This document shows positions 7,384 through 48,314 of a DNA stretch of 64,000 bases, in pieces (the first letter of the stretch is position 1; every line of letters starts with the position of its first letter). The position numbers and the translations under genes were made by a program. The DNA is taken from NCBI RefSeq assembly GCF_026745355.1, contig NC_079209.1:42477824-42541823 (forward strand). The letters are read 5' to 3'. This stretch comes from Beta vulgaris subsp. vulgaris. Taxonomy: Eukaryota; Streptophyta; Magnoliopsida; Caryophyllales; Amaranthaceae. The notes beneath the pieces were generated by a model. It saw only the letters and a list, made by a program, of their open reading frames with translations, had not been told where the DNA came from and made no database searches.

Positions 7384-7395
7384 TGGTATCAGAGC
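7384..7395 (+). promoter_or_regulatory. Primer binding site (initiator tRNA-Met type)
   Basis: TGGTATCAGAGC is complementary to the 3' end of plant initiator tRNA-Met, the usual primer of many plant LTR retrotransposons. It starts two bases after the CA end of the LTR, exactly where minus-strand priming is expected. Confidence 0.95.
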
Positions 7396-7917: not shown

Positions 7918-7932
7918 ATAAGGGTGGTAGTA
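7918..7932 (+). promoter_or_regulatory. Polypurine tract of the LARD element
   Basis: ATAAGGGTGGTAGTA lies directly upstream of the TG start of the 3' LTR. It is purine-rich but interrupted, as in related plant gypsy elements. Confidence 0.75.
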
Positions 7933-12316: not shown

Positions 12317-12321
12317 GTCAA

Positions 12322-12688
12322 CCTCAAACTCTCAAGGTTTCAACTATTCAACAGCCCTTCCCTCTCTCCCCCCAACTTGAATCTACCACAATAACCCATC
12401 CGATCCACACCACCGGCAGCACCACTCGAAGTCACCAACTGCCTGAATATCACTCAACCTAAAGTCCCATACTACCACCATAAATTTATAATTTACCACT
12501 AAAAACCCATCCCACAACCCCAATATCAACCAATTAACCCCCTAGTCACCGATCACAATCATTACTATAACCGAAAATCAACCAGTCAACCACCACCACT
12601 TGACAGGGTCATCGTTTTCGGAGTTGCTCACAAAAGGAGAGAGTAAGATAGAGAGATTACTAAAAAAGAAAGAGAAAGAACACGAATT
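12322..12688. other. No recognisable gene
   Basis: C-rich, proline/threonine-codon-like text with many CCACC words. No frame or repeat could be assigned. It is part of the sequence in which the LARD, MITE and Pack-MULE are embedded. Confidence 0.4.
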
Positions 12689-13011
12689 GAGGTCTGAACT
12701 TTGGGTGATAATTTTTGAAAGGTCTGAACTATTGATTAACCTGTGTAGGTCCCAACTTTAGGGGGTCTTAACTTTTAGCAGGCCTCGACGACTTAAAACT
12801 GAAGATTTTTTTAAAAAAATCTCACCTAGTTCCTACATCCTTCCATCAATTAACCCTTTTGATGTGACCCAAGTTTTACAAGTGATGACCTATTATGCCA
12901 GTTTTAAGTCACTAAGGCCCGCTAAAAGTTAAGACCCCTTAAAATTAGGACCTACACAGGTTAATCAATAGTTCAGACCTTTAATAACTTATCACCCAAA
13001 GTTCAGACCTC
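12689..13011. mobile_element. MITE with about 110-bp terminal inverted repeats
   Basis: The left end GAGGTCTGAACTTTGGG runs for about 110 bp and is matched, inverted, by the right end, including ATTGATTAACCTGTGTAGG and GTCTTAACTTTTAGC in both arms. Only about 100 bp separate the arms and nothing is coded. Long TIRs point to a Mutator-like MITE, but I do not see a matching 9-bp duplication at the ends, so the insertion is old or the termini are slightly off. Confidence 0.8.
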
Positions 13012-21688: not shown

Positions 21689-22866
21689 CTAGAATTTTTT
21701 GCACGCGATGCGTGCTTGATTTTTTTTTCGAAACAGAAACTCGATTTTCTTCGGCATAAGAGTCAAAATTTGAACATTAGACATACGAAGTATAATTGTT
21801 TTTAGTTGCAAGATTTAATTGGTTTAGTTTCTGTCACTTAAATCTCCCACCATTTTTTTTTTCTTTTACTTTTGAAAGTTAAATTCTATGAACAAAATAG
21901 AAACTGTATTGAATTTATTTATGATTTCTAATATTATAATTTTTTGGTTGATTTTTGAATTACGTACAATACTTCATAAAGTGTAAAGAAAGTAGACACT
22001 TTGATTTCAAGTCAATTTTTTCATAGGTTGTAGTTTGTAAGTGAATTTTTAAGTTTTTGTAAAGTTTCCTCATTTTAGTGATTTGCATAACGTAAATTAT
22101 GCAATTTTATGATTTTAGTTGACTTGTGAGTGATTGTTTATAATTATATTTTGATATTTTTGTTTGAAGCCCCCTTTGATTTGTAAGTGAATTTGTAATT
22201 TAGAATGTGAAGGAGGTAACATAGTCTCTTCATTCGGGGACACCATAGCCCCCCCTTCCCTTATATAATAGAGATATGTTGTACTTTAATTCTTGAATGA
22301 TATTTTACATAAACCTTTTTACCTTGATAATTAATCGCTATTGTATAATAGAAAAAAAATAGGTCCAAATATATGTAAAAGTTTCATTATATATAGGAAA
22401 CACTATAAAAAAAAAGTAAATAATTTTTTTCCTTGTCTAACTTCTAAATTCTGATTTCACTACAAATGCACCTCTATTTTTTATCATGACCCACCATTAA
22501 TTGTGAATGGTTCTTGAGAATAGTGATTTGTAAGTAAATTTTTGTAAATATTTTTGTATGTATTGACGTTCTAGGTTATTAGCTAAGTTTTGGTTTGTAT
22601 GTTAATTTTAAGTTTTAATACAGTTTCCTGATTATTTGAGTGATTTGATGATTTTTATAACGTGATTTTCTCAATTGTATGGTAAATTGTAAAGTTTCTT
22701 CTTTTAAGTGATTTGTGAGTGAGTGTTGTAAATTTATTTTAGGTAGTTTTCTTTGAGTGCCGATTTTGATTTTGACATTCTTTTTGTAATTTAGAAAGGG
22801 AAGGGGGCAAAATAGGCGTTTCAAAAGAGGACACCATTGCTCCCCCCTTCCCTTATATAATAGAGA
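21689..22866 (-). mobile_element. Composite Helitron (two 5' ends sharing one 3' end)
   Basis: On the minus strand the 3' end is a hairpin GCACGCATCGCGTGC followed by AAAAAATT and CTAG, with target T. Two 5' starts read TCTCTATTATATAAGGGAAGG: one at 22866 and one at 22274, each preceded by target A. This is the Helitron rule (TC...CTRR between A and T, no target duplication). The unit is non-autonomous: no Rep/helicase is coded. An inverted copy of the whole composite lies at 47225-48314, so the double-headed form moved as one unit. Confidence 0.82.
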
Positions 22867-23594
22867 TATGTTAAGACAGAAAAATGACTTCCCGGCGACG
22901 AGCACCGTCGTTGAACGTCGTAACAACTCCGGCAAAGCAAACCTTGATTATGACATATCCACCCCAATCTTCGCCGGAAAATCCAAAGATCACAATTGAC
23001 CTTCTATATGGACCAAAATTGTTTCTCTCTCCTCACTTTTGTTGTTCTCATACGCATATCTTCTGTTGATTTACATCAAAATCGACGGCAAAACTAAAGC
23101 GATTCATCCTCATCAATGCCATATGAGTGATAAAGAAGTGGGTATGTCATGGTTATTGTTGTATTGGTGGAATTTGTAATTTATTGGGTACCCATCGTAG
23201 TCATGGGTATTGTCGGGATCGATGGGGCTTCGTGTTTCATTGCTAGGACAATTTTTTAGGTTGAGGGTTGGTGTTTTGAGGGCAGTTTGGTGAGAGGCGA
23301 GTTGATTTCAAGGCTTGGGTGCATGTTTGATGTGGTAGGTTTACTGGTTGGTGGTGCGAAATGGTTGCGGTGATAGTGGTCGACATGATGGTTGTTGAAA
23401 TTAAATTGATGGTTGAGAGAAATGATATTATCTTTTTCGTTAAGAGGACTAATGTAATTTAAAGAAAATTTTGTAAAAAATAAATATAATAATAGAATTT
23501 AGAGTATAGACTCTTACCTATCAAATATGTTACCAGTAGTATAAGTTATTTTGGGAAGACCAAGCAAAGGTTGCCTTATTTAAAATAAAATTTC
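22867..23594. other. Interior of the candidate MULE: no assigned gene
   Basis: There is a 61-codon plus-strand frame from 22884, with an Arg/Pro-rich start (TSRRRAPSLN), and G-rich sequence to 23400. It could be a captured exon, but I do not recognise it. The right 60 bp form the presumed terminal inverted repeat. Confidence 0.3.
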
Positions 23595-26499: not shown

Positions 26500-28827
26500 A
26501 GTCAAGCCAGATCTTCCCATAAAGCTGGCCTTTGATCTACTTGAGACTCACCAAACAAGAAAAGGCAATGCCAAACCTTTCCATTAAGAGCAGTTATTTT
26601 ACAAAATACATAGCTCCTAGATTGATCAACTACATCCACACCGAATAGCCCCCAGCGAAAAACCACTAGGCCACCCCTTGTATCCACAACATCCACACCA
26701 CAAAACGAAGATGGATGGACAAGTTGATCTAAGTACACTAACTACTTTATTTACACTGGTTTTAGTCTCCTGCAAAAACATAAAAGTCGGATGATAACTC
26801 GCTACGAGCCATCTGAGATATGGAATTGTCAGACTACTCGCGTCATTCAGTCCTCGACAATTCCAAGAAAGTATATTCATGATGACTTTGGTGGTTGATG
26901 AAGGTCAACCACTTCCCTAGTGTTACTTTCCTATACCTTTCCAAAAGCCAAACTCAACTGGAGAGCCATTTCTGTTGCCACACGTTCGTCAACGGTTGTC
27001 GAAATCTATGATGGTGCTGGAACTCGAACCACATTCTCTATTGCATTTGTCCGCGGCTGAGATGATCATGTTTCCCGAGCCGTTGAAAAGCCAGCCTTGA
27101 TCTTCTTACTGATCCACTAAGATATTTGTTGTGGAGGTGATGAGGCTGCTACTCTTTTATTTCCTTTGTGAGCTAAAAAGTTTCCATCGGGTGTAACCCC
27201 AAAAGTCAAAGCCATATCTATATCTGTGATGGCTTTACTCCTCATTAGTGTATCATTTGGACCCTAGGAATTGTAAATCCTCCCTTAGCATCCCATAACT
27301 CCATCCTTCTTTTCTGCCTCTTGATACGAGCCTGTAGTTCATCATATCCAAACCTGAGGTAGGTATCTAAAGATTGACTTTTGGAACTGGGAGCGTCGCG
27401 TCTTCTTTTCCCTGTAAACAAGGCCGCTGACTCGGTTATATCTAGTCTTATGTTTCTCATGTTGTCCTCACGGTGTCTGAATATTGATTGCTGAAGATGA
27501 ATCCATCTCGTCCGTCAACTGCAAAATATCAAGGGGAGAAGTTAGAGAATAACAATCCTCCAAATTTTCATCATTGTTAATTGCTCCATTAAACCTTCGA
27601 TGATCCTGCAACAAGGGGTTAAACAAATCCGCAAATGGAGGAGGAGATATACGAAATCGACTATTAATTATATGTGATATGTTACGGAGCTCTTCGGGAT
27701 CATTGCTTGAATTGGAATGGTTTTGATTTTGTGGATGCAGGCCTATGTCCAGGTACCCGTGCAGATCATTGAGAGCCTGTTCATGCGCTCTATCAACCCA
27801 ATTACTCGGTCCGGCTTCTTGTGGCCCAGGAGGAGCTATAGGCCATCCTTTGGCAACCAAGTCTTCAAGCGTGTTGGTCTGGACATAATGAAATTCATTA
27901 GAATGGCATGGTTGGACTGGCTGGTCTATTATTACCAAAAGATCCACATATTCTTCTTACTGCTTGTGCCGAACGGCTGGCCCATTAAGATAACCCAGCT
28001 CCAGAACGCTGGGTAGCTTGACCCTGGTAGTTATGTGGTTCCATCTTCACAACAGTATCTGGTGTTGTTGGGCCAGAAGGCAGATTTAAGTCTATCTGCG
28101 AGGCTATGCTGACTGGTGAAGGAATTCCTTGATGATGATTAATTAGAGATCCCCATTGGTCTGGTCCCAACCCAAATCTCCTGCCTGGAGAGGGTGTAAT
28201 ATTCTCCTCCCATCTTATGGGAGTTTGGTTTTGGAATGAAGCATTAGAGAAGTCCGGCGGGGGATTAGTGTGGTTTTGCGAGTTTTCGTCGGAGTAGTAC
28301 TGTCTGTGGGGATCAAGGACAGTGGGGCTGAAAGTCTGGGGTAGCGTCAAAATAATCCTCAGTAGAACTCTCGGATTCTCCATGATCAAACAAATAAAGG
28401 TGGGGATATAAATAAGGATCGAATTGAGGTCCAGCCATATGAGGTGGTATTCGGTTTAGGTTTAGCCTTGGATTTCTATGCAAGAAACGATCGGTTAACC
28501 CTCGTATCAAATTTGTGTAAAGGGGAATACCTGATTGAGTTTGTAGGACCGTCATTCCATCATTTTCGAAACCCTGTACACGCCTCTGGATTATTCTACT
28601 AGCATTGTAGGCAGAAAGCGTGCATCTCCCCGTGTTGTGGCCTACGCATCCACACTCGCAAAATTTAAAGTTGCCTTCGTACCTGAAATAAACCCAAGTA
28701 ACTCGGTTGTCTTCTAAAGGAAGGAAGCATCCCGGGAATAATGGTTGAGTCATTCCATATTTCTTGCTAAAGGTTTTGTGGCATCTAACCATTTTATCCC
28801 CACTTTACCTTCACCATATGCAAAAAT
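26500..28827 (-). pseudogene. L1-type LINE relic: ORF1 with zinc knuckle and start of ORF2 endonuclease
   Basis: On the minus strand, upstream to downstream, an ORF1 with the block PGCFLPLEDNRVTWVYFRYE and a CCHC-type zinc knuckle (C-E-C-G-C-V-G-H-N-T-G-R-C, about 28625-28665) is followed by a Pro/Asn-rich region to about 27245. The start of an APE-type endonuclease reads MNILSWNCRGLND (26842-26880), with FLQETK and GGLVVFW-like blocks to 26502. Several frame changes break both ORFs. The 3' part (reverse transcriptase and tail) is lost, the reverse of normal LINE truncation, so a later rearrangement removed it. The N-terminal side is interrupted by the CACTA element and may continue at 30479-30590. 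Confidence 0.8.
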
Positions 28828-30800: not shown

Positions 30801-31625
30801 TTATACATTTTCGGTGACACAACTTCGCATAAAATAAACACTCTCTATATAATCTAAAATTGAAGGGTAAATGATTAATAACAGTTTACAATAATTACAA
30901 AAGTTGAAAAACAAAAAAACTAACATAAGATATTAAAAAGTACACAAATATAATGCAAAACAAAAATCAAAATTCTTATAATTTTTTGGGCACTTAACAC
31001 TAGCAAATGAAATTTCATAATCAATCAATCTAATCATTCTTTCTTTGCTTATGTTATTAATTACATATATATTTGACATGTAATTAATAAATCACAATTT
31101 TTTTCAAGAACCTTGATGGGTTTTAAGATAGTACTGTAAGTGTTCGGTGTATGTTGTTAGGATAGTACCTCAAGTGTTTGGTGCCTAATGGGTTTTAAGA
31201 TAAACTAGCAAAAACGGATCGATCCACATGGAGATGATTTCTAAAGATTAATGTTCAATTACTTAAAATCCTTTAAGAGAGAAATTAATTAAATAATTTA
31301 ATAACTAAACTAGAATAAACTAGAAAACAAATTATGAAAGTTTATCAAATAATTAAAAACCTAGGGCATTCAATCAGTCCATCATGTTTATATCAATTTA
31401 ATCACTACAATACAATTCAACAATAATTGGATTCGGGTTCAAGTAATTAGAGTATTTTGTTAATCATACGGTCTGGTCTTAATACTCTTAGATCAGCATA
31501 TGCTACTACGATCGCTGAACATATCAGATCTACGTCGTAACAAGCCTATAATCAGTACGATCTTTCAATTTTAACTCATATTAGCTAAACATAAACGATT
31601 ACATGAATTTAACAATTATAATAAA
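30801..31625 (-). repeat. Old LTR-like sequence (left part)
   Basis: It is non-coding. From about 31335 it matches 25830-26030. The match continues after the MULE at 32898 and runs to 33261, where the Tat element begins. CGATCCACATGGAGATGA near 31216 is a phrase common at the ends of plant gypsy LTRs. A short duplication (CCTTGATGGGTTTTAAGATA / CCTAATGGGTTTTAAGATA) lies at 31110-31205. Confidence 0.4.
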
Positions 31626-32094
31626 CGGTTTTTTCACCATATACCCCTGACAAATTTTTTTTTGCACCGTATACCCTTTCAGCTTTCCAAATTCACCATA
31701 TACCCTTCACTTTTCAAAAAATACATCAACTTACCCTTTTGACTAATGGTGTTAGACTTCCGTTAGTCATTAGGCCCTAATCCCCTCTAACCCAAGTTAA
31801 CTAACCTAAACCCTAACTCCCTAATTACCCTCTAACCCTAATTAACCCCAAACCTGCACTAGCCACCCACCCCCACCCCTCACCCTCACCCCCACCCCCA
31901 CCCCACCCTAGCCGCAACCCCCACCCCTTTCCCCGACAAACCCACCCCTCCCCTTTCCCCGGTAACCCCAACCCCTCCCTTTTCCCGACAACCCCACCCC
32001 ATCCCCTTTCCCCGACAACCCCACCGACGAAGTTGTCATCCATGGCGGAGGAGAGAGAGAGAGGGAAGGTGGGGAGAGGGGATCACAGGTTTGC

Positions 32095-32450
32095 GGTGAG
32101 GAGAGAGAGCAAAAATCCGATGGGGAGAGAGAGCGAAAATCCGATGGGGGAGAGAGAGCGAGAATTCGGTGCGGGAGAGAGGGCGAGAATCCGGTGGGGG
32201 AGAAAGAGCGAGAATCTGGTGGGGGAGAGAGCGCGATAATCCGATGGGGGAGAGAGAGCGAAAATCCGGTGGGGGAAAGAGAGCGAGAATCCGATGGGGG
32301 AGAGAGCGAGAGAATCTGGTGGGGGAAAAAGAGCGAAAATTCGGTGGAGGAGAGATAGCCAGAATCCGGTTGGGGAGACAGCGCGAGAATCCGGTGCGGG
32401 AGAGAGGGCGAGAATCCGGTGCGAGAGAGAGAGCGAAAATACGGTGGGGG
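32095..32450 (+). repeat. 25-bp minisatellite, about 14 copies
   Basis: Units follow the pattern CGGTGGGGGAGAGAGAGCGAGAATC, with scattered substitutions and one 24-bp and one 30-bp unit. Because 25 is not a multiple of three and the unit lacks stops, long frames are open on both strands. These are not genes. Confidence 0.93.
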
Positions 32451-32639
32451 TGGGGGTGGAGTGCGAAAATCCGGTGGGCAAGGTTGCGGCTGGGTGGGGG
32501 TGGGGGTGGGGTAGGGTGCAAAAATCCGGCTGGATGGGAGTGGGGGTGGGGGGAGGAGGCTGGGGGTGGACTGGCAAGGTTGCAGTTGGGAGTGGGTTGG
32601 TGGGGCTGGGCTTAGGGTGGGCTTGGAGTGGGCTGGTGG

Positions 32640-32735
32640 GCTGATGGGTTTTTAGGGGTTTTTAGGGATTTTAGGGTTTTTTAGGGTTTTTAGGGTCATT
32701 TAGGGTTTAGGGTTTATGGTAGTTAATTAGGTTTA
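32640..32735 (+). repeat. Degenerate telomere-like TTTAGGG stretch in the MULE
   Basis: Repeated TTTTAGGG and TTTAGGG words with irregular spacing, mirrored by CCCTAA words at about 31770-31860 in the opposite arm. It belongs to the subterminal inverted repeats of the MULE, not to a telomere. Confidence 0.6.
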
Positions 32736-32897
32736 GGAGAGATTAGGGCCTAATGACTAACGAAAGTCTAACACCGTTAGTCAAAAGGGTAAGTTGATGT
32801 ATTTTTTGAAAAGTGAAGGATATATGGTGAATTTGGAAAGTTGAAAGGGTATACGGTGCAAAAAAAAATTTGTCAGGGGTATATGGTGAAAAAACCG

Positions 32898-33266
32898 TAT
32901 AATAAATATATATAGGAATTACTCTAATTCAATCCAAATATCGAAGAACTTTAAATCATAATAATAAAAACAGGTATAAACATGGATTTCCTCACTGAGC
33001 CAAAAAAAGATCACTCACTCATAATATTGAAAACATAACGAAAATATAAGAGGTCATCAAATTAAACTAAGTAAGGATTAATACCGAATGATTGAAGACC
33101 AATGAATACACAATCAACGATCTTTATAACCATCAAAGGCATGAGTTAATACAAAACTAGAGAGAGAAAACTAAGTGTTTAAATCTAATCGATGAGATAA
33201 ATAAGGTGAACTCTATATAGTATTTGAAAAATCAGCTAAAAAAATACGGAAAACAGTCAACCTGAC
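32898..33266 (-). repeat. Old LTR-like sequence (middle part)
   Basis: It continues the match to 26095-26440 after the MULE insertion and ends at the target site CTGAC of the Tat element. The sequence on the other side of that element (from 44781) is its continuation. Confidence 0.45.
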
Positions 33267-33720
33267 TGTTTCTGCCTAGAAACTAGTCAAAAGAGTAATA
33301 TGTTTAAGGTGAGAGTCAAATCCCGAATTAGGTTAGAATCCCGAGTCTCGTAGTCTCCAATCCTGCAAAACAAGGAAAAACTGGCCGGGGGTGTTCCCGG
33401 AAAGCCCCTCCGACGCTCAAGTCAGTTGAGATTGAGGTAGAGAGAGAAAGTAATCCAAGTCTAGAGAGAGATGCTCTGGTTTTGTTAGGTGAGAATTGAA
33501 TACCTGCTCATTGATGGGATTGTTGGTATTTATAGTTGTTGGGGATTTCCCAGACAGGAAACCCTTTTTGGGAGCCTCCAAGACCTAGGAGCCACCACCT
33601 TTTTAAGGTAATCAGCTTTTTGTTCCCTAAAAGCTGGTGGATCTTCCTTGAGATGAGAGAACTAGGCTTGGGGTGAAATGCCTTTTAATAATTTATTGGG
33701 CCAGACCAGGGGCCCAAACA
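33267..33720 (-). repeat. 3' LTR of the Tat element
   Basis: 454 bp. On the plus strand it runs TGTTTCTGCCTAG to GGGCCCAAACA; in element orientation it starts TGTTTGGGCCC. It is nearly identical to 44317-44775. Indels against that copy sit in short C and G runs (for example GGCCGGGGG against GGCCCGGGGG). Confidence 0.95.
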
Positions 33721-34200
33721 ATTAGCCCCGCGCCAAATAATCGTAAATGAACTCTGGTTTCAGAATGCGGTTGATTGGCGAATTTTTCCTTAGCTGGCTC
33801 TCGGTCCGGGAACCCGACCCGAGTTCTCCCACTTGTGGGGGGATTTTTGAGGGGAGTTACTAGACCCCGAGAGGAGTTTTGGCTGAAGGTTCAACACTGA
33901 CCCCGACCCGAGGACATCGCGGCCTCTCACCACGTCAATTGCTGAAATCCCGAGTGGGGTTTCTGGGTTACAGCGTTGAGCGGAGGTGTGAGCACCGTCC
34001 CGAGAGTGCCCTGATGCCCCGAGTGCGGTATGATGAATTCTCGAGCGGGGGGAAGCGACCAGCCATAAGCACGCAATCCCGACTCGGGCATGCCGCGGCA
34101 TTTCAAATCCCGAGTGGGGGAGGTGTTTGTTTGCATATTATCGGCCTCGGGATGGAGGGGGGAACCCAAGGGTCTCATGCTACCCCGAGTTGGTCTGAGA
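33721..34200 (+). other. Spacer between 3' LTR and satellite array
   Basis: CCCGAG and CTCGGG words recur at irregular spacing, apparently degenerate ancestors of the 111-bp unit. Open frames on both strands look compositional. No recognisable protein. Confidence 0.4.
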
Positions 34201-34235
34201 CGGACTTGGGCAAGAAGCGACCAAGCAGGAGTATC

Positions 34236-35357
34236 CAACTCGGGGCCAATGGACCTCTCCATGGAGTCCCGAGATGGCCATGACGGAACTTAGCCATTAT
34301 TTGGGTTGACCCTACTTGAGTCCCTTGGATTGACCATGTGGTGGTACCCAACTCGGGGGCGGGTGAACCTCCGTGTTCGATCCCGAGTTGTTTATTGTTT
34401 AACTTAGCTCATTTTGGCTAAGTATGAGCTCCTTGGATTGATCAAGAAGGGGTACCCAACTCGGGGGCCAGTAGGCCTTCTCATGTAATCCCGAGTTGGT
34501 GATGATGGAACTTAGCTCATTATTTGGCTAAGTACTGAGCCCCTAGGATTGACCAAGTAGGGGTACCCAACTCGGGGGCCAATAGGATTTCTCATGTAAT
34601 CCCGAGTTGGTGATGATGGAACTTAGCTCATTTTTTGGCTAAGTACTGAGCCCCTTGGATTGACCAAGTAGGGGTACCCAACTCGGGGGCCAATAGGCCA
34701 TCCCATGTAATCCCGAGTTGGTGATGATGGGACTTGGCTCATTATTTGGCTAAGTACTGAGCCCCTTGGATTGACCAAGTAGGGGTACCCAACTCGGGGG
34801 CCAATAGCCATCCCATGTAATCCCGAGTTGGTGATGATGGGACTTAGCTCATTATTTGGCTAAGTACTGAGCCCCTTGGATTGACCAAGTAGGGGTACCC
34901 AACTCGGGGGCCAATAGGCCATCCCATGTGATCCCGAGTTGGTGATGATGGGACCTAGCTCATTATTTGGCTAAGTACTGAGCCCCTTGGATTGACCAAG
35001 TAGGGGTACCCAACTCGGGGGCCAATAGGCCATCCCATGTAATCCCGAGTTGGTGATGATGGGACTTAGCTCATTATTTGGCTAAGTACTGAGCCCCTTG
35101 GATTGACCAAGTAGGGGTACCCAACTCGGGGGCCAATAGGCCATCCCATGTGATCCCGAGTTGGTGATGATGGGACCTAGCTCATTATTTGGCTAAGTAC
35201 TGAGCCCCTTGGATTGACCAAGTAGGGGTACCCAACTCGGGGGCCAATAGGCTATCCCATGTGATCCCGAGTTGGTGATGATGGAACTTAGCTCAGAATT
35301 TGGCCAAGTACTGAGAGCCCCTTGGATTGACCAAGTAGGGGCGCCCAACTCGGGGGT
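34236..35357 (+). repeat. 111-bp tandem array, eleven copies
   Basis: The phrase CAACTCGGGG recurs at 34236, 34349, 34457, 34568, 34679, 34790, 34900, 35011, 35122, 35233 and 35346, giving periods of 113, 108, 111, 111, 111, 110, 111, 111, 111 and 113. Central units are almost identical (GGATTGACCAAGTAGGGGTA, then ATCCCGAGTTGGTGATGATG), and those at both edges are more diverged. It lies in the 3' non-coding part of the Tat element, a place known to generate satellite DNA in this lineage. Confidence 0.95.
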
Positions 35358-35524
35358 GATTGGAGGGAGTCATGGTTTGAGAATAGGGTTGACCGTTGAC
35401 CTTCTGACTTTTGGCCATTTGGACTTTTGGGGACCTGAACTTGAATTGGGCTTCTTCCATTTTGGCCCAATCTTTTGAGGGCCCATTGAGGGTCCAGAGG
35501 TTGTCGCGACGCGGAGGGGAGATT

Positions 35525-35540
35525 TGAGGTTATATATAGA
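35525..35540 (+). promoter_or_regulatory. TATA box of the antisense gene in the Tat element
   Basis: GAGGTTATATATAGAG lies upstream of a CT-rich leader (TCTCTCTCTAGAATC repeats, 35590-35650) and the first splice donor. It is on the plus strand, opposite to the direction of gag-pol. Confidence 0.6.
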
Positions 35541-36824
35541 GATGGAGAGAGGATTTGTCCGTATCCCAAATCATTTGCAATCACTTTCACTCTCTCTCTA
35601 GAATCTCTCTCTAGAATTTCTCCCTAGATTCTCTCTAGAATTTCTAGAATTTCGTCCGATCCCGAGTCCTCCTAGCGCGCGTCTCGGTTTCCGCTCCCGA
35701 CTGTTGTTTGAGAAGGTACGCCCCCTTGTGTCCCTTTTCTTTTCTTATTTTTGTTATTAGGTGTTTAGGATGGATCCCGAGTCGGATCCTAGTGAGTCTT
35801 CTTCTTCTATCATTAGACTTTCTGAGGAGATACGGGGGGTAGATGGATTCTTGGTTATACTCGGGTTCCCTGTGAGGACCCTTCCACCGTTCCCGAGGCC
35901 ATTCCTCTTACCACTCCATCGGATTCCCTAGCGAGGAAGACGAAGGGGTTGTCCCGGGACCTTTTGATGTTTCCTTGGCCCATAAACCTGTAGTTCGAGT
36001 TATCTGGATAGGTTATTGTCGGACAAGGTGGTGACGGTTTTGAGGAACCCGAAGATGAAGCCCCGACCACCTCCGGACAAGAGGTTCCTTCCTTAGATCC
36101 CGAGGGAGGCCCTCATACATTCTTTCCCGAGGCCAGCTTCATGACTTATATGGAGAGAAATGCGAAGTATATTGGGACCAAGTTCTGGATCCAAGACCCT
36201 TACTTTGTGGTGAGGGCCAAGAGTGCGGAGTCGGTATTGACTCCTCCTCCTGGGTGTGTTTCAGTGTACCATCATAGCATGCAGATGGGCCTTAGGTTTC
36301 CCTTGCACCCATTCATCAAGGACCTACTGAATGGTTACCAGCTTACTCTGACCAACTTACTTCCAAACAGCTGGTTAACAATAAATGGATTCATTGCTGT
36401 TTGTGATCTTCTCGGGGTGGCCCCGAGCTTGCGCCTGTGGCGTAATGTTTTACTTTGATGCTTGGCCCGGCTGAGCGCCATGGTCCGGGGTGGTTCCGTT
36501 TTCAGTGTCGCCCAGGTTACAAAGTGGTTCGTGATCCTCCTTCTAACCAAAAAGGATTCAGAAGAACCTTCTACCATGTTTATACCAGCGGCGATTGGGG
36601 GATACCCATATTACCCCCCGAGGAAGGTCCCAGATTTAGATTGAATCAGACGGTTCCTGAGATGTCTCGGGAGGAGGCAGTTGCTGGGATATACCTTTCT
36701 ACTACCCCGAGAATACATTCGGGGGACTTGGCTTATGTGCCTTCGAATTGGTTGCCCACTCGCCATGATATCCGGAACGAGATGTTCTTGGCGGCTGTAG
36801 GCTTGAGCTGTAGCTGTGATAAGG

Positions 36825-36892
36825 GTAAACTCCTTGTCCAAATGTGCAATTTATCTTGTTTATGCTAAATTTTGACATTTTGTTTGTTTCAG
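36825..36892 (+). other. Intron of the antisense gene
   Basis: GTAAAC donor, T-rich tract and TTTCAG acceptor, 68 bp. Splicing joins GATAAGG to TTCTAGCC and removes an in-frame conflict, so the codons read straight on. Confidence 0.8.
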
Positions 36893-37014
36893 TTCTAGCC
36901 CGACACCGACTCGATCCTGTAATGGCTGAGCGATTCATCAGTAGCCACGACTTGGCAGCTAAGCTCTTGGCGGAACTGGACGCAGAGACTATGTCTGTAC
37001 CCCCGGCTCCAAAG

Positions 37015-37086
37015 GTGAGTCTTAATTCCGACCCAATCCCGACACCGAGTGTATTTTTCTGTTTTGCTAACTATCTTTTCATTCAG
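37015..37086 (+). other. Intron of the antisense gene
   Basis: GTGAGT donor after CCAAAG and ATTCAG acceptor, 72 bp. Flanking codons remain in phase. Confidence 0.8.
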
Positions 37087-37494
37087 GATACCGAGTCCAA
37101 GAGGGCTAAGAAGCCTCACGTCCGCTCCCGTAAAGTGAAGTCGGATGTGGAGAAGGCTCAGGCTGCTGCAAAAGCCGAGGCGGAGAGGCGGCAAGGCGCC
37201 TTCGCTTGTAGCCTCGAAGGTTTCCGACAAGGCCTCGTCGGGGTTTCATCGGGAAGCAAGCGGAAGGTTCCGAGCTTTCCCGAGGATGCTTTGATAGGCT
37301 CTGAGGAGCCTATACAGAAGCGTACCCGAGTCGAGAAGTTTGGGATTGATACTCCCTTTACTTCTATTTCTCCGGCGCAGAAGATGGCTAGGGTGAGGTC
37401 TGCTCTTCATACCCTCTATACCGATGCCGATGATAAGGCACTCTTGGACTTGGGCATGGGCGAGATCAATGCTTTGTACGAGTCCTGGCTCGAG

Positions 37495-37562
37495 GTGAGT
37501 ACCTGTCCAGACTTCTTTTATTTCTCTTTCGGGTTTTCCTTATGTTTTGCTTTATCTTGCAG
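37495..37562 (+). other. Intron of the antisense gene
   Basis: GTGAGT donor after CTCGAG and CTTGCAG acceptor, 68 bp. The coiled-coil exon follows in phase. Confidence 0.85.
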
Positions 37563-38369
37563 ACCTCCATTCGTATGACTTCTGTGATAAATCGTCGCTC
37601 CCAATTTGAGGAGGGCGTTATTGAGCTGAAAGGGGAGATTGACGCCCTTAAGAAGCAGATTCAGGAGAAGGACGCTGAAGTTACCCGGCTCACTACCGAG
37701 TTAAATTCTCAGAAGGAGACCTTCGAAGAAGCCTCCACTGCTGTTAAGGAACATAAAGCACTGAAGGATAATCAGAAGGTGCTGACTGACGACCTTAACG
37801 CTGTTACCCTCGAGAGGAACACCCTTCAGAAGGAGCTGGACGAGCTACGCGTCAAGCTGTCGTCCGCAGAGAGGAAGCCAAGCGCTCCGCGCACAAGTTG
37901 AAGAAGGCCTCCAAAGAGGCAAAGGCTGAGCACTCTGAATTTTTGGAGGGATGGAAGAGGTCTCCTGAGGGTTTTGAATTACTTGGGACAGATGGCTTCT
38001 CGTTCCTACCGGATGGCGGTCAGGGAAACGAAGGAGCGGTTAAAGGGAATCCTGGTCGGTCCCGACTCCTCTTTGGACTGGTCGAGGGTCGAGGCTGAGT
38101 TTGACGCTCGCATAGCCGAGGAGCAGCGAGTGAATGCCGAAAAGGCTGCAAAGAAAGATCCTCCTCAATCATCTGCTTCCAAGGCGCCTCAGCCTTCGGT
38201 TTCAAAGGTTTCTGAGGACCCGACTGATCTTCCTTCCACACCTCCCGAGGCTCCAACTCCAAACCCCGAGGTGGACGTTGAACCAGAGGATCTTCTGTCA
38301 GAGAGTTCCAATGATGAGGATGGTACAGGCAGTACCGACAGCTCCCCTGCCAAGACTGCTGCTGTTTAG

Positions 38370-38799
38370 ATATGTTGTTTTAAACTTTGATGTACTAAAC
38401 CCTGAGTGTTTGTTCTCGGGTTAGATTTTTCTTATGGTTCTTGAGAGTCTGTTCTCGGGACCTTTATGTTGTACTTTTCTTTTGATGAAGTATTTCTTTA
38501 CAAAATTCATTTGTCTATTTGCTAAAATTTCTGTTATTGATGCTTATCATTCGTTGCAAATATGAGATAATGTGTCAACTTTCATTACTATTGCAATAAT
38601 ACCGAGCTCTAATAAGGTATTGCTAATGGCCCCGAGTTGTAACGAATGATAAAACCGTCGGCTCAACTGTAGTCAAGGCGGCTTTAGTCAATGTTAACTC
38701 AAAAGGGGACTGGCGAATACCCCGAGTTAGCTTGCATTTTGATTACAGAATTGGCTCAAGTGTGGCCATGTTACATGGTAACTTAGATAAAGTATTCTT
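38370..38799. other. Convergent 3' regions of antisense gene and pol
   Basis: T-rich sequence with AATAATACC-like and TGATGTACTAAA words but no clear polyadenylation signal. It separates the stop of the plus-strand gene from the end of the minus-strand integrase frame. Confidence 0.4.
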
Positions 38800-39240
38800 T
38801 CAAATTGTCTGCATTCCGGGTCGGGCAAGTGGGGTGCCTTCTGGTGACTCAAGTCGGTATGTCCCGGGCTTGACCTCGGCGACAACCTTGTAAGGTCCAT
38901 CCCACTTTGGCCCGAGCTTGCCTTTGAGGTGGGTGAGGCCAGTAGCTTCCACCTTTCTCACCACCCAATCCCCGACTAGAATAGGGCGAGCTCTGACCCT
39001 TTGATTGAACTGTCTGGCTACTCGTAGCTTGTTATGAATGGATTTCAGCAGAGCGTTGCCTCTTGTCTCGGGAAGTAAATCGAGATTGACTGGTTTTCTT
39101 CTTCGTTCTGCTCGTAATCGTAGAATGTCATTCTCGGGGATGGTATCCCGACTTCTACAGGAAGGACAGCGTCGCTTCCGTAAACCAGGTTGAAAGGCGA
39201 ATGGCCAGTTGCCTCTTTCACCGTTGTCCTTGCTGACCAT
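38800..39240 (-). pseudogene. Tat integrase C-terminal part
   Basis: 146 codons. It contains the ...ARPILVGDWVVRKVEATG...GKLGPKWDGPYKV... block, the SH3-like C-terminal fold that follows the catalytic core in gypsy integrases, and ends shortly after GTYRLES. It is out of frame with the core region upstream; the break lies in 39045-39130, where the two frames overlap. Confidence 0.85.
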
Positions 39241-39835
39241 AACACTCCCGGGAGGTCGTCAATCCAACTTCCCTTAGCTCCTTCTAGGGACTTTTTTATC
39301 CCATTCAGCACAACTTTGTTTGCAGCCTCTGCTTGACCATTTGTCTGGGGTCGGGATACTGCTGAGAATCTTGTTCTAATGCCGAACCTGGAACAGTACT
39401 CCCGAGTTGGCCCACTGTTAAATTGCCTTCCATTATCTGAGATGAGAGTCTTGGGAACCCCGAAACGGGTGATGATGTTTCTCCATATGAAGTTCTGCAC
39501 TTGCTTATCCGTTATGGAGGCCAGTGGTTCCGCCTCGACCCATTTTGTGAAATAGTCGATGGCTACCAAGAGAAACCTCCTTTGCCCCGAGGCGGCGGAA
39601 AGGGACCTATGAGGTCCATTCCCCACTTGTCAAATGGAAGAACAGCTTGGATAGTTGTGAGCTGATTGGTCGGGGCCCGAGGTATATCTCCGTGAAGTTG
39701 ACAATTAGGGCACTTCCTGACCAGTACCTCTGCATCATGTTTTAGGGTGGGCCAATAGTACCCCGCCCTTAGAGCTTTCCCAGCTATTGTCCTGGCCCCC
39801 TGATGGCTGCTGCAAGCTCCTTCATGGATTTCCCT
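39045..39835 (-). pseudogene. Tat integrase core
   Basis: Zinc-finger remnants (HEGACSSHQGA and CPNCQLHG, about 39700-39830) precede the catalytic core. The first Asp is in the DYFTKWVEAEPL block, the second in SDNGRQF and the Glu in NGQAEAANK (about 39320-39560). A frame break near 39600 (the WGMDLIGPF block) separates finger and core. It is the strand-transfer enzyme of the element but broken here. Confidence 0.88.
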
Positions 39836-40477
39836 TAGAATATAGTTCCTTCAAATGGAGTGACGCATTTTAGCAACGGGTGCGTGTAAGATTTTTTATA
39901 CAAGTTGCCTTCATGCCAGAGAAACCACCCTGCCTTCTTCTTAAGGGCGTCAGCCTCTTTCTCGTCTATGGGCAAGAATCCGTCCCGAAGATACCCTATG
40001 ATTTCTGCCATCCAGGTGTCGGTGCGGTTCAAAGTGTGCACTTCCAAAGAGTTGATGCTTGGCTGTTCCAGGACTTCCCAAATTATGCTGCGAGGTGCTA
40101 ACCCCTCAGCTGAGCTAGCCATGCGGGCCAGGGCATCAGCCTGTTGGTTCTCAGACAGGGGGAAATGTTGGATTTTGAAGGAAGTCAGCTTCTGAATTAG
40201 TTGTCGGGTCTTGTTGAGGTACATCCTCATATTATCCTCCTTAGCTTCGTACTCCCCAGAGACCTGCCCGACTATTAGTTGGGAGTCGGACTTTGCCAAG
40301 ATGTTCTGAGCTCCCGCCGTGATACAAATTTGTAAGCCCAGGATCAGTGCTTCATACTCGGCCTCGTTTGTTGGAGGCGAGGAAATTTAACTTCACCGCG
40401 TACTCCATCTTGTCCCCGACAGAGGGAAGGATGACCAGACCAGCCCCACTTCCCGACTTGGTTGCGGAACCATCTAC
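39835..40477 (-). pseudogene. Second (additional) RNase H of Tat element
   Basis: It begins after a stop at the end of the first RNase H unit with VDGSATKSGSGAG, the Asp-containing start of an RNase H fold. It continues through the KSDSQLIVGQ and ADALARMAS blocks, which carry the later acidic residues. One frame change lies near 40370 (run CAACAAACGAGG). A second RNase H in tandem is the diagnostic trait of Tat elements. The linker to integrase follows. Confidence 0.88.
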
Positions 40478-41299
40478 TTAATTCCATGACTCCCTTACTT
40501 CAATGTCCTCCGGGCGGGAGCAGCATTCGCTGATGAAGTCCGCTAGGGCTTGGGCCTTGATCGCCCGACGTGGCTCATATTCCAAACCGTAGTCGGCCAG
40601 CTGGTCCGCCCACTCGGTCATTCGGGTCGAATGATTCCTGTTCTCAATTAGCTTCCTGATAGGTTGTCCGGTTAGGACGATGATCTGATGCGCCTGAAAA
40701 TACGGCTTCAACTTCCTACTTGCCATCACCAGGGCGAACACCATTTTCTCAGCCTCACTGTATCTCGACTCTGCCCCTCGGTACGCATGGCTGATAAAAT
40801 AGACGGGGTGTTGGGATGTTTCCCTTTCGGCAACCAACACCGCACTGAGTGCATGCTCTGATACCGAGAGGTATAAGTAAAGAGTCTCTCCCGGCAAGGG
40901 AGATATGAGTTTCGGCAGCGTTGTTAAGTGTTGTTTTAGTTGTTGAAACGCTTTTTCTGCTTCCGGGTCCCAGTCGAACTCTTTTCTTTTCAAGGCCCTG
41001 AAGAATAGCAAGCTCTTGTCTGCCGACCGAGACAGAAAACGCCCTAAGGCAGCCAGGCACCCCGTCAGCCTCTGTACTTCTCGAACGTTCCGGGGTGATG
41101 ACATGTTCAACACTGCATTAATCTTGTCGGGGTTGGCTTCTATCCCCCTCTCATCTACCAGGAACCCCAAACACTTACCGCCAGTGACCCCGAATACACA
41201 CTTCTTGGGGTTTAGTTTCATGCCATGGCGCCTGAGTGTCGCCAATGTCTCCCTCAGATCCTCTACATGATCCTTCTTCTTCTTTGCTTTAACAATCAT
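40478..41299 (-). pseudogene. Tat reverse transcriptase C-terminal half and first RNase H
   Basis: It opens with MIVKAKK, immediately downstream of where the YxDD motif should be. Thumb region blocks (LRRHGMKLNPKKC, FLGF-like CLGFLV) follow, then the RNase H region with FDWDPEAEKAFQQLK, LYLYLSVSEHALSAVL, PVYFISH and LVMASRKLKPYFQAH. It ends at a nonsense codon (40478-40480) just before the second RNase H. All parts have normal family spacing. Confidence 0.9.
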
Positions 41300-42509
41300 A
41301 GACGTATACTTCTATATTCCTCCCGAGTTGCTCTGCAAAGACCTTGTTTATGGTTCTTTGGTATGTGGCCCCTGCGTTTTTTAGCCCAAAGGGCATCATT
41401 TTGTAGCAGTATACGCCTTGGGCTGTGACAAAGGCAGTATGGACTCGGTCTTTTTCAGCCATGGGGATCTGATGGTATCCCGCATTGGCGTCCATGAAGC
41501 TAAGCAACTCGTGACCTGCAGTAGAGTCGACTAACCTGTCAATTTTCGGGAGGGGATGGTTGTCTTTAGGACATGCTTTGTTAAGGTCTGTGAAGTCGAC
41601 GCACATACGCCAAGCTCCGCTGGCCTTCTTCACCAAGACCACATTAGCTAACCACTCAGTGTACTGACACTCTTCGATGATCCCCGCCTCTAGCAGCTTC
41701 TTAACTTCTTCTGCCGCTGCGGCATTCCTCTCGGGACCTTGATGCCTGAGCTTTTGCTTGATAGGACGAAACCCTTTCTTGATGTTGAGTTCATGGGAAG
41801 CAAAGTCGGGGCTCAGTCCTTGCATGTCCGCAGATGAATAAGCAAATACGTCCTTGAACTCTTTCAAGGCCAGAATCAGTTGATTTCTAATCTCGGGACT
41901 GAGGTTTGAACCAATCTTCAATGTATGTCCGAGTTCGGGCTCTATCACGACCTCTTCGACCTCCTCCACAGGTCGGGGACGCTCATAGTACTTGGGGTTC
42001 TCAGATATATAAACCCCGAGTCCCGCGGGGGCTTCTGTTGGTTCCTCTCTCTTTCTCTTCTTTTCCTTCTTCTCCTCGGGTGCCTTAGCTCGAAAGCTGT
42101 TGACATAACATTCTCGGGCTGTTTGCTGGTCCCCATAAATCTTCCCGACATGCCCATCATCGGTTTCATATTGGAGCAGTAGCTGGTATACCGAGATGGC
42201 AGCCTTTATCTTGTTCATGGTGGGCCTGCCCATGATAGCATTGTAGGGTAGTGGGGTATCAACAACTAGGAAATCTACTGGTAGACTTCTTCCCTTTCCT
42301 CTTTCCCCAAGTCTTACAGCCAGCTTTACTAAGAGAGGGTAGACCGACCCGCCTCCGAAACCGATCAATGGTTGGTTGGTAGGGATCACATCCTTCTCGA
42401 TGTATTTCAGTTTGAGCAAACAGTCGAGTATGATGATGTCGGCTGAGGATCCACTATCAACAAGGATTCGTTTCACCCGAGAGTTGGCTATTTTCATTTC
42501 TATGACCAA
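41289..42509 (-). pseudogene. Tat protease and reverse transcriptase N-terminal half
   Basis: 406 codons. Aspartic protease motif DSGSS near residue 18, then the flap block IGFGGGSVYPL and IMGRPTMNKIKA. After a charged linker the reverse transcriptase begins at GFRPIKQKLRHQGPER, with RMCVDFTDLNKACPKD, FMDANAGYHQIPM (first catalytic Asp) and MPFGLKNAGATYQR. At the end the frame reads VYVYDC and stops: the two catalytic aspartates of YVDD are missing, consistent with a net loss of five bases at about 41299-41303. Confidence 0.92.
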
Positions 42510-42800
42510 GGGGTCATCATGGGGGTGTGCAAGTGCCGGTCAGGCTCCCCGAATGTCATTATCGGGCATCCTGCCTTTGCAGGTTCCACATCTAGCACTC
42601 GATGGGTCATTGCTTGGAGATGGGCCTTGCGAGCGCGGCCAGATGATCCTCCCGAGGCGTGGCCCCCCGCTATGACACCGACATACCCGTCGGTGTTATC
42701 GCTATCGTTTCTCGCTTCTTTGTCCTTCCCCTTCTCTTCTCGGGGATGCTTGATGTATCTATTCAACTTCCCTTGATCAGCCAAGTGATCCAAGGCCTTC
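42500..42800 (-). pseudogene. Tat gag C-terminus and gag-protease linker
   Basis: This frame carries on from the gag after a shift near 42897 (six G). The HTTKDCRELK end of the CCHC zinc knuckle lies just upstream, then DHLADQGKLNRYI, a charged linker and the GVIAGGHASGGSS block that precedes protease. A further one-base shift at about 42520 separates it from the protease frame. Confidence 0.8.
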
Positions 42801-42801
42801 T

Positions 42802-44262
42802 TTAACTCCCGACAGTCTTTCGTAGTGTGACCACACTCCCGATGGTATTCGCACCATAATCTCTGATCCCGCCTATCTTTGGAAGTTCTGATAGGTGGGG
42901 GGTGGGCAATACCGACTTGTGCTTAAGATCCAAATAGATTTCCCGCCTGTTTCTGTTGAAATGTGGATCATTCCCATTATCTACTGCTCTCGGGAGCAAC
43001 TGTTGGTGATTCCTCATGCTTTTGTTTGGTTCCCGGTAAGGGAGTTCTTCCTTCTTTTTCTTAGCCTTTTCCCCGACAGGCTTACAGATATCCGAGGCTT
43101 GGATGAATTTCTGAGCCCGACTCATGGCCTCGGTGAAAGTGGTGACCTCGTTCTCAGCGAGGGACCATCTGAATTTTCCCGGCCAAAGTCCGGACATTAG
43201 GGCGGTGAACGCAACCCCGTCCTGAAGATCTGAAATCTTCAGCGACTCCTCGTTGAATAGCTTAATATAATCCGCCAGGCTCTCGTGCTCTTGCTGCTTG
43301 ATGGACATTAAGTGGATGCTGGTTTTCTTGTGCCTACGTCCAGCAATGAAGTGTTGGTGAAATAATGCCTCCAGAACCGAAAAGTTAGTTATGATACCCG
43401 GGGACAAGCCCGAAAACCAACTGAGCGCCAACCCTTTGAGGGTCGTCGGGAAATAGCGGCACCAAGTGGCTTCACATCCCGTCTGCACACTCATCTGAGC
43501 TTTGTAGGCGGCCATATGATCCTCGGGATCGCTACTGCCCGAGTATTGCTCGATGGTGGGGACCTTAACCTTTCCCGGGTTGGGTACCTCCATGATCTCC
43601 CGACTGAAGGGGGTCATAAAGTTGAGGACTCCCCTATTGATCAAGGTGTTGGTCTTGTTCCGAGGAGGCCCTGAGTCCGCTTCGTCCTCCTGCCTCGTCC
43701 TCTTGGACCCGACAGGAGACTTCTCCCGCTCCCTCCTCGGGGTCTGAGAGTGAGCCTGCTCCTCACGGTGCGTCCTTTCCCTTTCTTCTCTCTTCTTGTT
43801 TAAGAGGATGCGAGCGTCCTGCTCTGCTCTGCGCCTCCTATTCTCTTCAATGATGCACCTGGCATCCGAGTTCTGGGTCCTCTGAGAGTGAGCCTGTCGG
43901 GATCTTTCTCCTACCACTCGTTGCTCGCTCCGGTTAGGAGCGTGAGTTTGAGGGTTATCCCGGCCACGGGTCTCTGCCCGGGTCATCTCTCGGGGCTCCC
44001 CTTGATTGAGCTGGGGGATCCCGGCTATGAGCTGCTGTAAACTCCTCTGCATGTTTTCGTTCAACTGTCGGGCAATCCGCTCAATGTCCGCCATCGTGAC
44101 CGGCATAGGGTCATCTCGGGGAGCAGAATGCTCGTCGTTACGCGGGGTCGACCCCTCGTCGTCTATGGCCAGGGATTCGACCAAGACATTGGGTTGGTGA
44201 GACTGGAGAGGTGTGGGTTGGCGAGACAGTGAACCTCGGGTGGTTTTCCTTCGGGGTGCCAT
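42802..44262 (-). pseudogene. Tat gag
   Basis: 486 codons from an ATG about 55 bp inside the LTR end. The N-terminal half is polar and rich in Arg, Glu and Gln. The gag core (about residues 225-400) holds KVKVPTIEQYSGSSDPEDH, AYKAQMSVQ, TLKGLALSWF and SLADYIKLFNEE. After residue 440 a shift at six G (near 42897) puts the zinc knuckle (YHRECGHTTKDC) out of frame. It forms the coat protein of virus-like particles in active relatives. Confidence 0.92.
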
Positions 44263-44295
44263 GTTGCTCTCGGTACGTGACTTTGAGATGTAGTA

Positions 44296-44313
44296 TCCCC
44301 ACAGACGGCGCCA
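44296..44313 (-). promoter_or_regulatory. Primer binding site of the Tat element
   Basis: On the minus strand, TGGCGCCGTCTGTGGGGA starts three bases after the LTR end. TGGCGCCGT is shared with primer sites complementary to plant tRNA-Asp; the remaining bases differ from that tRNA, so the exact primer is unsure. Confidence 0.8.
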
Positions 44314-44316
44314 AAC

Positions 44317-44775
44317 TGTTTCTGCCTAGAAACTAGTCAAAAGAGTAATATGTTTAAGGTGAGAGTCAAATCCCGAATTAGGTTAGAATCCCGAGTCTTG
44401 TAGTCTCCAATCCTGCAAAACAAGGAAAAACTGGCCCGGGGGTGTTCCCGGGAAAGCCCCTCCGACGCTCAAGTCAGTTGAGATTGAGGTAGAGAGAGAA
44501 AGTAATCCAAGTCTAGAGAGAGATGCTCTGGTTTTGTTAGGTGAGAATTGAATACCTGCTCATCAATGGGATTGTTGGTATTTATAGTTGTTGGGGATTT
44601 CCCAGACAGGAAACCCTTTTTGGGAGCCTCCCAAGACCTAGGGGAGCCACCACCTTTTTAAGGTAATCAGCTTTTTGTTCCCTAAAAGCTGGTGGATCTT
44701 CCTTGAGATGAGAGAACTAGGCTTGGGGTGAAATGCCTTTTAATATTTTATTGGGCCAGACTAGGGGCCCAAACA
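44317..44775 (-). repeat. 5' LTR of the Tat element
   Basis: 459 bp, close to identical to 33267-33720, including TG...CA ends and the adjacent CTGAC duplication. It contains a CTATAAATA element on the minus strand. Confidence 0.95.
44579..44587 (-). promoter_or_regulatory. TATA box in the Tat 5' LTR
   Basis: The minus strand reads CTATAAATA inside the 5' LTR, about 270 bp before its end. It is the likely start point for genomic RNA. The same sequence is in the 3' LTR near 33523-33531. Confidence 0.55.
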
Positions 44776-46458: not shown

Positions 46459-47224
46459 TTATTTAACATAGTGATGACTTTTTTGGATACAATCACCCTT
46501 TCCTTCATTAGTTTACCATCGCGAAATTTTCACTTTATATGATAAGGTTTTTTCCTCACTGTCACCCTTTACAATTATATCTACTCTTTTATATCTATTT
46601 TTTTATGGCAAACTTTTTTTTATTAAATCACATGTACTAACATTAGATCCGCATTAATTTAGTGTGGACCAGGTCCATATAAGTTTTTTTTACTTTATGT
46701 AAAGGGATAAATATTTCTTAGTTCAGTAATATTTAATCAAAAAATCTACATGGATCGGTGATAGAGTTTATGAGAAAGCTTGTATTGAATAGTATGGCAA
46801 GTATACCTTATACAAGAGATAACAACTAATAGAGGAAATAAAGATATTATGCTAATAATATCTTAGATAATTTGAGGATGATTAAAGGGTGGTTGAGTAA
46901 TAATAGTAATGGAGAAAGGACACCATTTATCTGGTGAAGTTTGAAGTGGCGCCACCAGGTGAAACATAAGATATGTGTAAGGGAGGATTGGTTGAGTTAG
47001 AATTGATGGAAGGACTTTTTTATTGGACAATACTTGGTACTCAAACTATAAGGTGGCAAAAGAGTTGAGTGGAAGTCGTAGGGTTGAGGCTTTATTGGTA
47101 TAAAGGGTTTTCATTTTTACCATTGGAGGACGATGATGGCTAATTTGGGAGTGATATTATCACTACCCCTATTAAGGGTGGGAGACTAGAGAGGGGAAGT
47201 GTGGTTAAAGATGAAAGTTCTTAA
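46459..47224. other. No recognisable gene
   Basis: AT-rich with a few G-rich lines. 46750-46860 matches the flanks of the MITE at 48310-48720 (GTGTATGAGAAA and ATTATGCTAATAATAT words), so it is itself an unnamed repeat. No frame of interest. Confidence 0.4.
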
Positions 47225-48314
47225 TTTCTATTATATAAGGGAAGGGGGAAGCAATTGTGTCCTCTTTTGAAATGTCTATTTTGCCCCCTTCTCTTTCTAA
47301 ATTACAAAAGGAATGTCAAAATCAAAATCGACACTCAAAGAAACTACCGCAAATTAATTTACAACACAAACTCACAAATCAGTTAAAAGAAGAAACTTTA
47401 CAAATCACTCATACAATTGAGAAAATCACGTTATAAAAATCACGCAAATCACTCAAATAATCAGGAAACTTTATTAAAACTTAAAATTAACATACAAACT
47501 AAAACTAATAACCTAGAACGTGAATACATACAGAAACATTTATAAAAATTTACTTACAAATCACTATTCTCAAGAACCATTCACAATTAATGGTGAGCCA
47601 TGATAAAAAATAGAGGTGTATTTGTAGTGAAATCATAATTGAGAAGTTAGACAAGGAAAAAAGATTATTACTTTTTTATAGTGTTTCCTATATATAATGA
47701 AACTTTTACATATATTTGGACCTATATTTTTCTATTATATAATAGCGATTAATTATCAAGGTAAAAATATTTATGTAAAATATCATTCAAGAATTAAATT
47801 ACAACATATCTTCATTATATAAGGGAAGGGGAGGGGGAACTATAGTGTCCCCTAATGAAGAGACTATGTTACCCCCTTCCCATTCTAAATTACAAATTTA
47901 CTTGCAAATCAAAGGTGGCTACTTATAAAATACCAAAAATATAATTATAACAATGACTCACAAACTACAACCTCTGAAAAAATTGACTTGAAATCAAATT
48001 GTCCACTTTCTTTACAATTTATGAGGTACTTAATTCAAAAATCAACTAAAAAATTATATTATTAGAAATCATAAATAAATTCAATAAAATGTCTATTTTG
48101 TTCATAGAATTTAACTTTGAAAAGTAAAAAAAAAAAAAAAAAACAAAAAGAATGGTGAGAGACTTAAGTGACAGATTCTAAACCAATCAAATTTTGCACC
48201 AAAAATAATTATACTTCGTTTGTCTAATGTTCAAATTTTGACTCTTATGCCGAAGAAAATCGAGTTTCTATTTCGAAAAAAATTCAAGCACGCATCGGGT
48301 GCAAAAAATTCTAG
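47225..48314 (+). mobile_element. Composite Helitron, inverted twin of 21689-22866
   Basis: The outer start at about 47225 (TTTCTATTATATAAGGG, first C changed) and the inner start at 47809 (TCTTCATTATATAAGGG) share one 3' end: GCACGCATCGGGTGC, eight bases, CTAG at 48311-48314 and T. The loop-side base of the hairpin is mutated here. Order and content match the minus-strand composite over its whole length, including the junction between the two heads (TTACAACATATC). It is non-coding. Confidence 0.82.

Follow-up and report, generated by a model that had tools for sequence, protein, structure and literature searches.

In the 64,000-nucleotide stretch of Beta vulgaris DNA analysed here (the window), a gene that encodes a Transposase_28 (TRP28) domain lies on the plus strand between the integrase and the 3′ LTR of a minus-strand retrotransposon. 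The best explanation, to which we give a probability of about 60%, takes it for the antisense accessory gene of a Retand-type element, which in this branch would be one gene of four exons coding for a nuclear coiled-coil accessory protein. That it is the antisense TRP28 gene of Retand is nearly certain, and on the homology of their junctions the three coding introns are very probably real in the family. It is likely that the protein is made in some plants. A nuclear regulatory role, suggested by relatives and by composition, is tentative, at slightly less than even odds.

The host is a Ty3/gypsy LTR element on the minus strand, from 33267 to 44775 of the 64-kb window, with the following parts:

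33267-33720, minus strand: 3′ LTR, 454 bp, with CTGAC directly before it on the plus strand
34219-35356, no strand assigned: tandem array with 10.3 copies of a 111-bp unit, lying between the 3′ LTR and the antisense gene
39048-39626, with a tail to 38803, minus strand: integrase (rve, PF00665; SH3_Tf2-1, PF24626) in two overlapping frames
39838-40299, minus strand: second RNase-H-like domain (RVT_3, PF13456, E 2.4e-10)
40481-41299, minus strand: end of RVT_1 and RT_RNaseH, in another frame than 41292-42509
41292-42509, minus strand: reverse transcriptase (RVT_1)
42805-44262, minus strand: gag ORF (Retrotrans_gag, PF03732, E 2.8e-11)
44317-44775, minus strand: 5′ LTR, 459 bp, with the second CTGAC of the 5-bp target duplication directly after it

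Both LTRs run TG...CA with CTGAC at their outer flanks; their alignment of 461 columns shows 97.8% identity, 5 mismatches and 4 gap openings. Pol of the window copy is broken and spread over several frames. Judged by domains, their order and sizes, the layout is that of the Retand lineage of Tat. The profile match to PF13456 places the second RNase H between RNase H (40481-41299) and integrase (39048-39626), an arrangement described as common to Ogre and Retand (Neumann 2019, PMC6317226), and an antisense TRP28 ORF lies between pol and the 3′ LTR. The LTRs of 454 and 459 bp, the internal region of about 10,596 bp (from coordinates) and the integrase-to-3′ LTR region of about 5,080 bp, which contains the plus-strand gene and the 111-bp array, all fall within the published Retand ranges (LTR 315-1,194, internal 7,380-12,869 and pol to 3′ LTR 2,933-6,566 bp; PMC11963269). 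The LTRs, the pol domains and TRP28 thus bear out the initial annotation, which had placed a plus-strand gene inside a minus-strand Tat-type element.

Several other repeats are found in the window. Outside the element and near its 3′ LTR, a 1.3-kb unit at 31619-32904 has 234-nt terminal inverted repeats (88% complementary) and encloses a 25-bp x 14 tandem array (32100-32450); it looks like a DNA element of the fold-back type. Inverted copies of another repeat flank the LTR element at 21853-22867 and 47224-48140, 79-94% complementary in five matched pieces. Farther away, RVT_1 and zf-RVT pieces lie on the plus strand at 16301-18037, which we take to be the domain pair of a LINE-type element, and a minus-strand ORF at 28316-28792 gives a weak zinc-knuckle match (PF14392, 20.8 bits against a cut-off of 27).

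Antisense genes of this kind are already known. Vicient 2025, whose survey counted 104 antisense ORFs in 63 Retand clusters, found TRP28 ORFs in antisense in every cluster but two, called the ORF characteristic of Retand and recorded tandem arrays in about half of the clusters (PMC11963269), and Neumann 2019 recorded TRP28 in 23% of Retand elements (PMC6317226). Given this published association and the Retand layout of the window element, the main claim of the initial annotation, that a retrotransposon carries such a gene, is not new. The ORFs of the 2025 survey were predicted with ORF Finder and listed one by one, and the word 'intron' does not occur in its main text (PMC11963269). We found no report of introns in Retand antisense genes in the literature examined, the 2013 Grande paper and the 2011 survey of extra ORFs lying outside that scope and the cited papers being covered in part. 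Within those bounds, the coding introns that the window gene shares with its relatives seem to have been overlooked.

The predicted features of the gene are:

35530-35539, plus strand: TATA-like string ttatatatag, found by eye, a candidate promoter
35591-35645, plus strand: CT-rich leader, 13-bp repeat x 4.4
35716 to 35760 or 35768, plus strand: possible leader intron, 45 or 53 nt, doubtful
35770-36824, plus strand: exon 1, with the start ATG, acidic N-terminus and TRP28; five frame breaks
36825-36892, plus strand: intron 1, 68 nt, phase 1
36893-37014, plus strand: exon 2
37015-37086, plus strand: intron 2, 72 nt, phase 0
37087-37494, plus strand: exon 3, basic; two frame breaks, outer frame unchanged
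37495-37562, plus strand: intron 3, 68 nt, phase 0
37563-38369, plus strand: exon 4, with coiled coil, acidic tail and stop; two frame breaks

All three putative coding introns that interrupt the antisense coding sequence are of the GT-AG type. Their AT content is 0.60-0.71, against 0.44-0.49 in the flanking exon pieces, and 36455-37898 without them forms 412 stop-free codons. We scanned 35701-38420 for splice-site pairs with a rough plant table and a length limit of 60-110 nt, and took 200 first-order Markov sequences as the null. Introns 2 and 3 were the top two of only three plus-strand candidates. The score of intron 2 (15.8) exceeded the best candidate in each of the Markov sequences, whose maximum of 14.2 lay above the score of intron 3 (12.7). 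The third-best plus-strand score, 9.7, was matched by the third-best in 0 of 200 Markov sequences; it belongs to a 101-nt pair, 35716-35816, that would delete the start codon and is not among the introns of the initial annotation. On the minus strand the same scan gave three candidates with a best score of 7.2. Intron 1 was absent from the candidates, as its donor (1.35, summed by hand) is below the table cut-off of 2, and so its support comes from homology. The leader intron that had also been proposed is shorter than the 60-nt limit of the scan and is doubtful.

Homology at the junctions was examined in all 22 distinct proteins found as relatives. In two of the protein searches, scoring was confined to the candidates with the most shared words (7,998 and 7,992), and the lack of grass relatives therefore carries no meaning. 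Four of the relatives are Beta vulgaris gene models (P0001, P0002, P0003 and P0009), and P0022 is a weak match in Abeliophyllum. Neither the viral-contig scans nor a genome-contig scan yielded DNA of a relative, and the intron sequence of relatives is visible only as translated read-through residues.

The flanks of intron 1 are matched in ten proteins. P0001 joins the two exons with 0 extra residues, its Ala codon fitting the same phase. Each of the five raw ORFs extending beyond the junction (P0005, P0006, P0017, P0018 and P0019) loses homology at one codon, where it has the Gly that G|GT allows, followed by non-homologous residues. Four of these are diverged and thus informative, the most diverged being P0017 at 36% identity; P0005 is near-identical to the window. 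Of the remaining proteins, P0002 leaves exon 1 at the same point and resumes later in exon 2, the start of which is skipped, P0012 stops at the junction, and P0003 and P0004 cover the exon-2 side only.

At intron 2, flanks are matched in four proteins: the three Beta models among them join with 0 residues, and P0004 reads through with 24. At intron 3 the exons are joined with 0 residues in each of the four Beta models, the P0004 frame continues into the intron and P0007 has the right side only. The remaining protein, P0010, reads through intron 3 with 24 unlike residues (72 nt, versus 68 nt in the window). An intron is expected to leave just such a pattern, a gap of differing length between exons that keep their frame. 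The Beta models, which may be ab initio predictions using the same splice signals, are rough: P0003 lacks exon 1, P0001 lacks part of TRP28 and P0009 is fused to an unrelated ABC-transporter domain. By hand reading, the place of the acceptor CAG is taken by His, not Gln, in P0019 (intron 1) and P0010 (intron 3); His leaves no AG, so these copies would not splice there. P0010, in which intron 3 is open in frame and the acceptor AG is apparently gone, may have lost use of the intron or may be decaying.

Chance as the source of the introns is rejected given the splice scores of introns 2 and 3 and the homology at all three junctions. The positions are kept in relatives at the level of protein junctions, and the three introns of about 70 bp in the initial annotation (68, 72 and 68 nt) accordingly find support in homology.

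The same comparisons bear on a very unlikely alternative, which takes the introns for read-through linkers or chance stretches and the locus for two or three separate antisense ORFs. The near-identical open copies are split at the introns into P0005 for exon 1, P0004 for exons 2-3 and P0007 for most of exon 4, P0010 is open through intron 3, and surveys count such ORFs individually (PMC11963269), all as separate ORFs would predict. However, neither the middle nor the last piece has a conserved start to itself: P0004 opens within intron 1 and P0007 at a Met in the interior of exon 4. The Beta models make their joins precisely at these junctions, the intron residues of P0010 and the window are unlike while the exons align, and the splice-site scores of introns 2 and 3 also speak for splicing. 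We therefore prefer one spliced gene of four exons.

As assembled, the window copy is, on its sequence, unable to make the whole protein. A frame-change alignment against P0005, P0004 and P0007 locates nine frame breaks, five in exon 1 and two each in exons 3 and 4. The same comparison, which in P0004 takes in intron-2 residues, covers 836 residues, of which 22 are changed; it has a single codon indel, and no substitution creates an in-frame stop. The claim that the frames join exactly thus holds at the three introns, and fails elsewhere in the window copy. The excess of frame breaks can reflect recent decay or indel error in a long-read assembly. There is an even chance that the window gene has no present function and is a pseudogene, irrespective of the role of the gene in its family. 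Nine breaks in 836 compared residues would fit such decay, as would a gag-pol that also lies in several frames. Set against this, the breaks stand beside only those few residue changes, the single codon indel and no substitution stop, the LTR pair has four gap openings to five mismatches, and an excess of small indels may equally be long-read assembly error.

The family protein can be described more fully from its open copies. TRP28 (PF04195) is matched in Pfam at 36267-36446 (E 7.6e-16), within the open piece 36069-36452. The start ATG is kept in kind, with N-termini MDPE, MDPV or MEPE in P0005, P0013, P0016, P0021 and P0001. In the open copies that are near-identical to the window gene, the first 120 residues carry a net charge of -20; the tail of P0007 carries -10 over 85 residues. 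The heptad contrast of exon 4, taken over the first 140 residues of P0007, was reached by 0 of 2000 residue shuffles, and the exon has a conserved KRSPEG-MASRSY-KERLKG stretch. TRP28, heptads and charge therefore agree with the predicted product of the initial annotation, which combines a Transposase_28-type domain, a coiled coil and an acidic tail. In exon 3, the stretch KRAKKPHVRSRK, recognised by eye, looks like a nuclear signal.

AlphaFold models of the product were poor (mean pLDDT 29.6 and 43.3), so structure is uninformative on function. The exon-4 coil (37563-37898) also gives Pfam matches to Mis12 and mitotic checkpoint proteins below the cut-off. The 2025 survey lists these names as separate antisense domains (PMC11963269); the matches may be coiled-coil look-alikes within one spliced gene. 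Homology of the coil to CENP-F, Mis12, MAD and the like was rejected, all such matches being below Pfam cut-offs. Capture of a host gene by the element was likewise rejected, as the relatives sit in the published lineage-wide TRP28 group.

Under the four-exon reading, a promoter between the 111-bp tandem array and exon 1 would drive plus-strand RNA. Independent transcription, as the initial annotation had it, is a possibility raised for the window gene by the TATA-like string, which is present together with the CT-rich leader reported with it; an own promoter has been described for the maize relative, Grande gene23. A role in host interaction, also put forward by the initial annotation, is speculative. 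Removal of the three short introns, which homology points to, would leave an mRNA for a protein of about 800 residues (the sum of the open exon lengths), ordered as acidic N-terminus, TRP28, basic nuclear-signal-like stretch, coiled coil and acidic tail. The protein would dimerise through the coil, enter the nucleus and, as an accessory regulator of the retrovirus-like kind, target host chromatin or the DNA or RNA of the element. Introns can persist in such a gene because the template for new copies is the minus-strand genomic RNA, where the splice signals lack their orientation. This argument of the initial annotation is sound as reasoning, and the continued sharing of the introns with relatives argues against spliced antisense RNA as the usual template.

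It is unlikely, but proposed in print (PMC7264820), that the antisense RNA is what matters and that the ORF is a passenger. The RNA would be complementary to genomic RNA, and transcription across the 3′ third would feed small-RNA silencing or hinder reverse transcription. The gene does lie inside a stretch covered by genomic RNA (33721-38369) and, as had been claimed, its coordinates make it convergent with pol. Antisense retrotransposon RNA has also been tied to silencing or lower transposition (review, PMC12786077). However, frame and protein are kept across Beta proteins 57-67% identical and down to 36%, and near-identical copies have open exons, which would be unexpected for a pure RNA function. 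RNA and protein roles could exist together. The idea of double-stranded RNA, also raised by the initial annotation, is already in print: Vicient and Casacuberta 2020 proposed it along with retrovirus-like regulation and urged attention to spliced antisense transcripts (PMC7264820).

The four-exon reading has consequences beyond the window. It is possible, at just under an even chance, that a single spliced, multi-exon antisense gene of about 800 residues is widespread among Retand elements and that its exons were taken for separate antisense ORFs; its introns would predate the split between the families compared here (as the 36% identity at intron 1 suggests) and form a one-way record. Surveys limited to uninterrupted ORFs would undercount and split such a gene; here, a survey of that kind would return three ORFs (TRP28, basic and coiled-coil) instead of one protein. 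The protein whose function the field asks about would change with it. If this reading is true, the introns would last only as long as no new copies arise by reverse transcription of the antisense mRNA, and their retention in an element that replicates in this way would reveal the template strand. The full protein could then come only from RNA already processed by the nuclear splicing machinery, so that a nuclear regulatory gene is kept apart from genomic RNA on the same DNA. The three junctions also provide an RNA test of whether antisense genes of plant retrotransposons are expressed as proteins.

Among known systems, the closest are the antisense TRP28 ORFs of other Retand elements (PMC11963269), which the window gene resembles in place (pol to 3′ LTR), strand and domain (PF04195), in the tandem array adjoining the 3′ LTR, and in the weak coil matches to Mis12 and mitotic checkpoint proteins, below the cut-off in the window. 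They are described there as separate ORFs, in contrast to one four-exon gene here. Grande gene23 of maize and teosinte is likewise an antisense accessory gene in a long 3′ internal region, a likeness drawn from its description; its antisense transcription from its own promoter and its nuclear product have been reported (PMC7264820).

Spliced antisense genes are established in deltaretroviruses (PMC10186651). Like the predicted window gene, HTLV hbz/APH has a spliced antisense transcript and a nuclear coiled-coil protein, and RNA and protein roles are both possible there. The likeness is one of working alike, with no claim of shared ancestry, and the hbz/APH promoter is in the 3′ LTR whereas the TATA-like string of the window lies ~1.8 kb inward of it (35530 versus the LTR end at 33720). 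Plant LTR elements are generally without introns, Ogre and EVADE being the notable exceptions according to a 2025 review (PMC12786077). The window element is like Ogre, also of Tat, and EVADE in being a plant LTR element with an intron (PMC6317226, PMC12786077). However, the introns of Ogre and EVADE are in the sense gag-pol RNA, where partial splicing is needed, and those predicted in the window are antisense.
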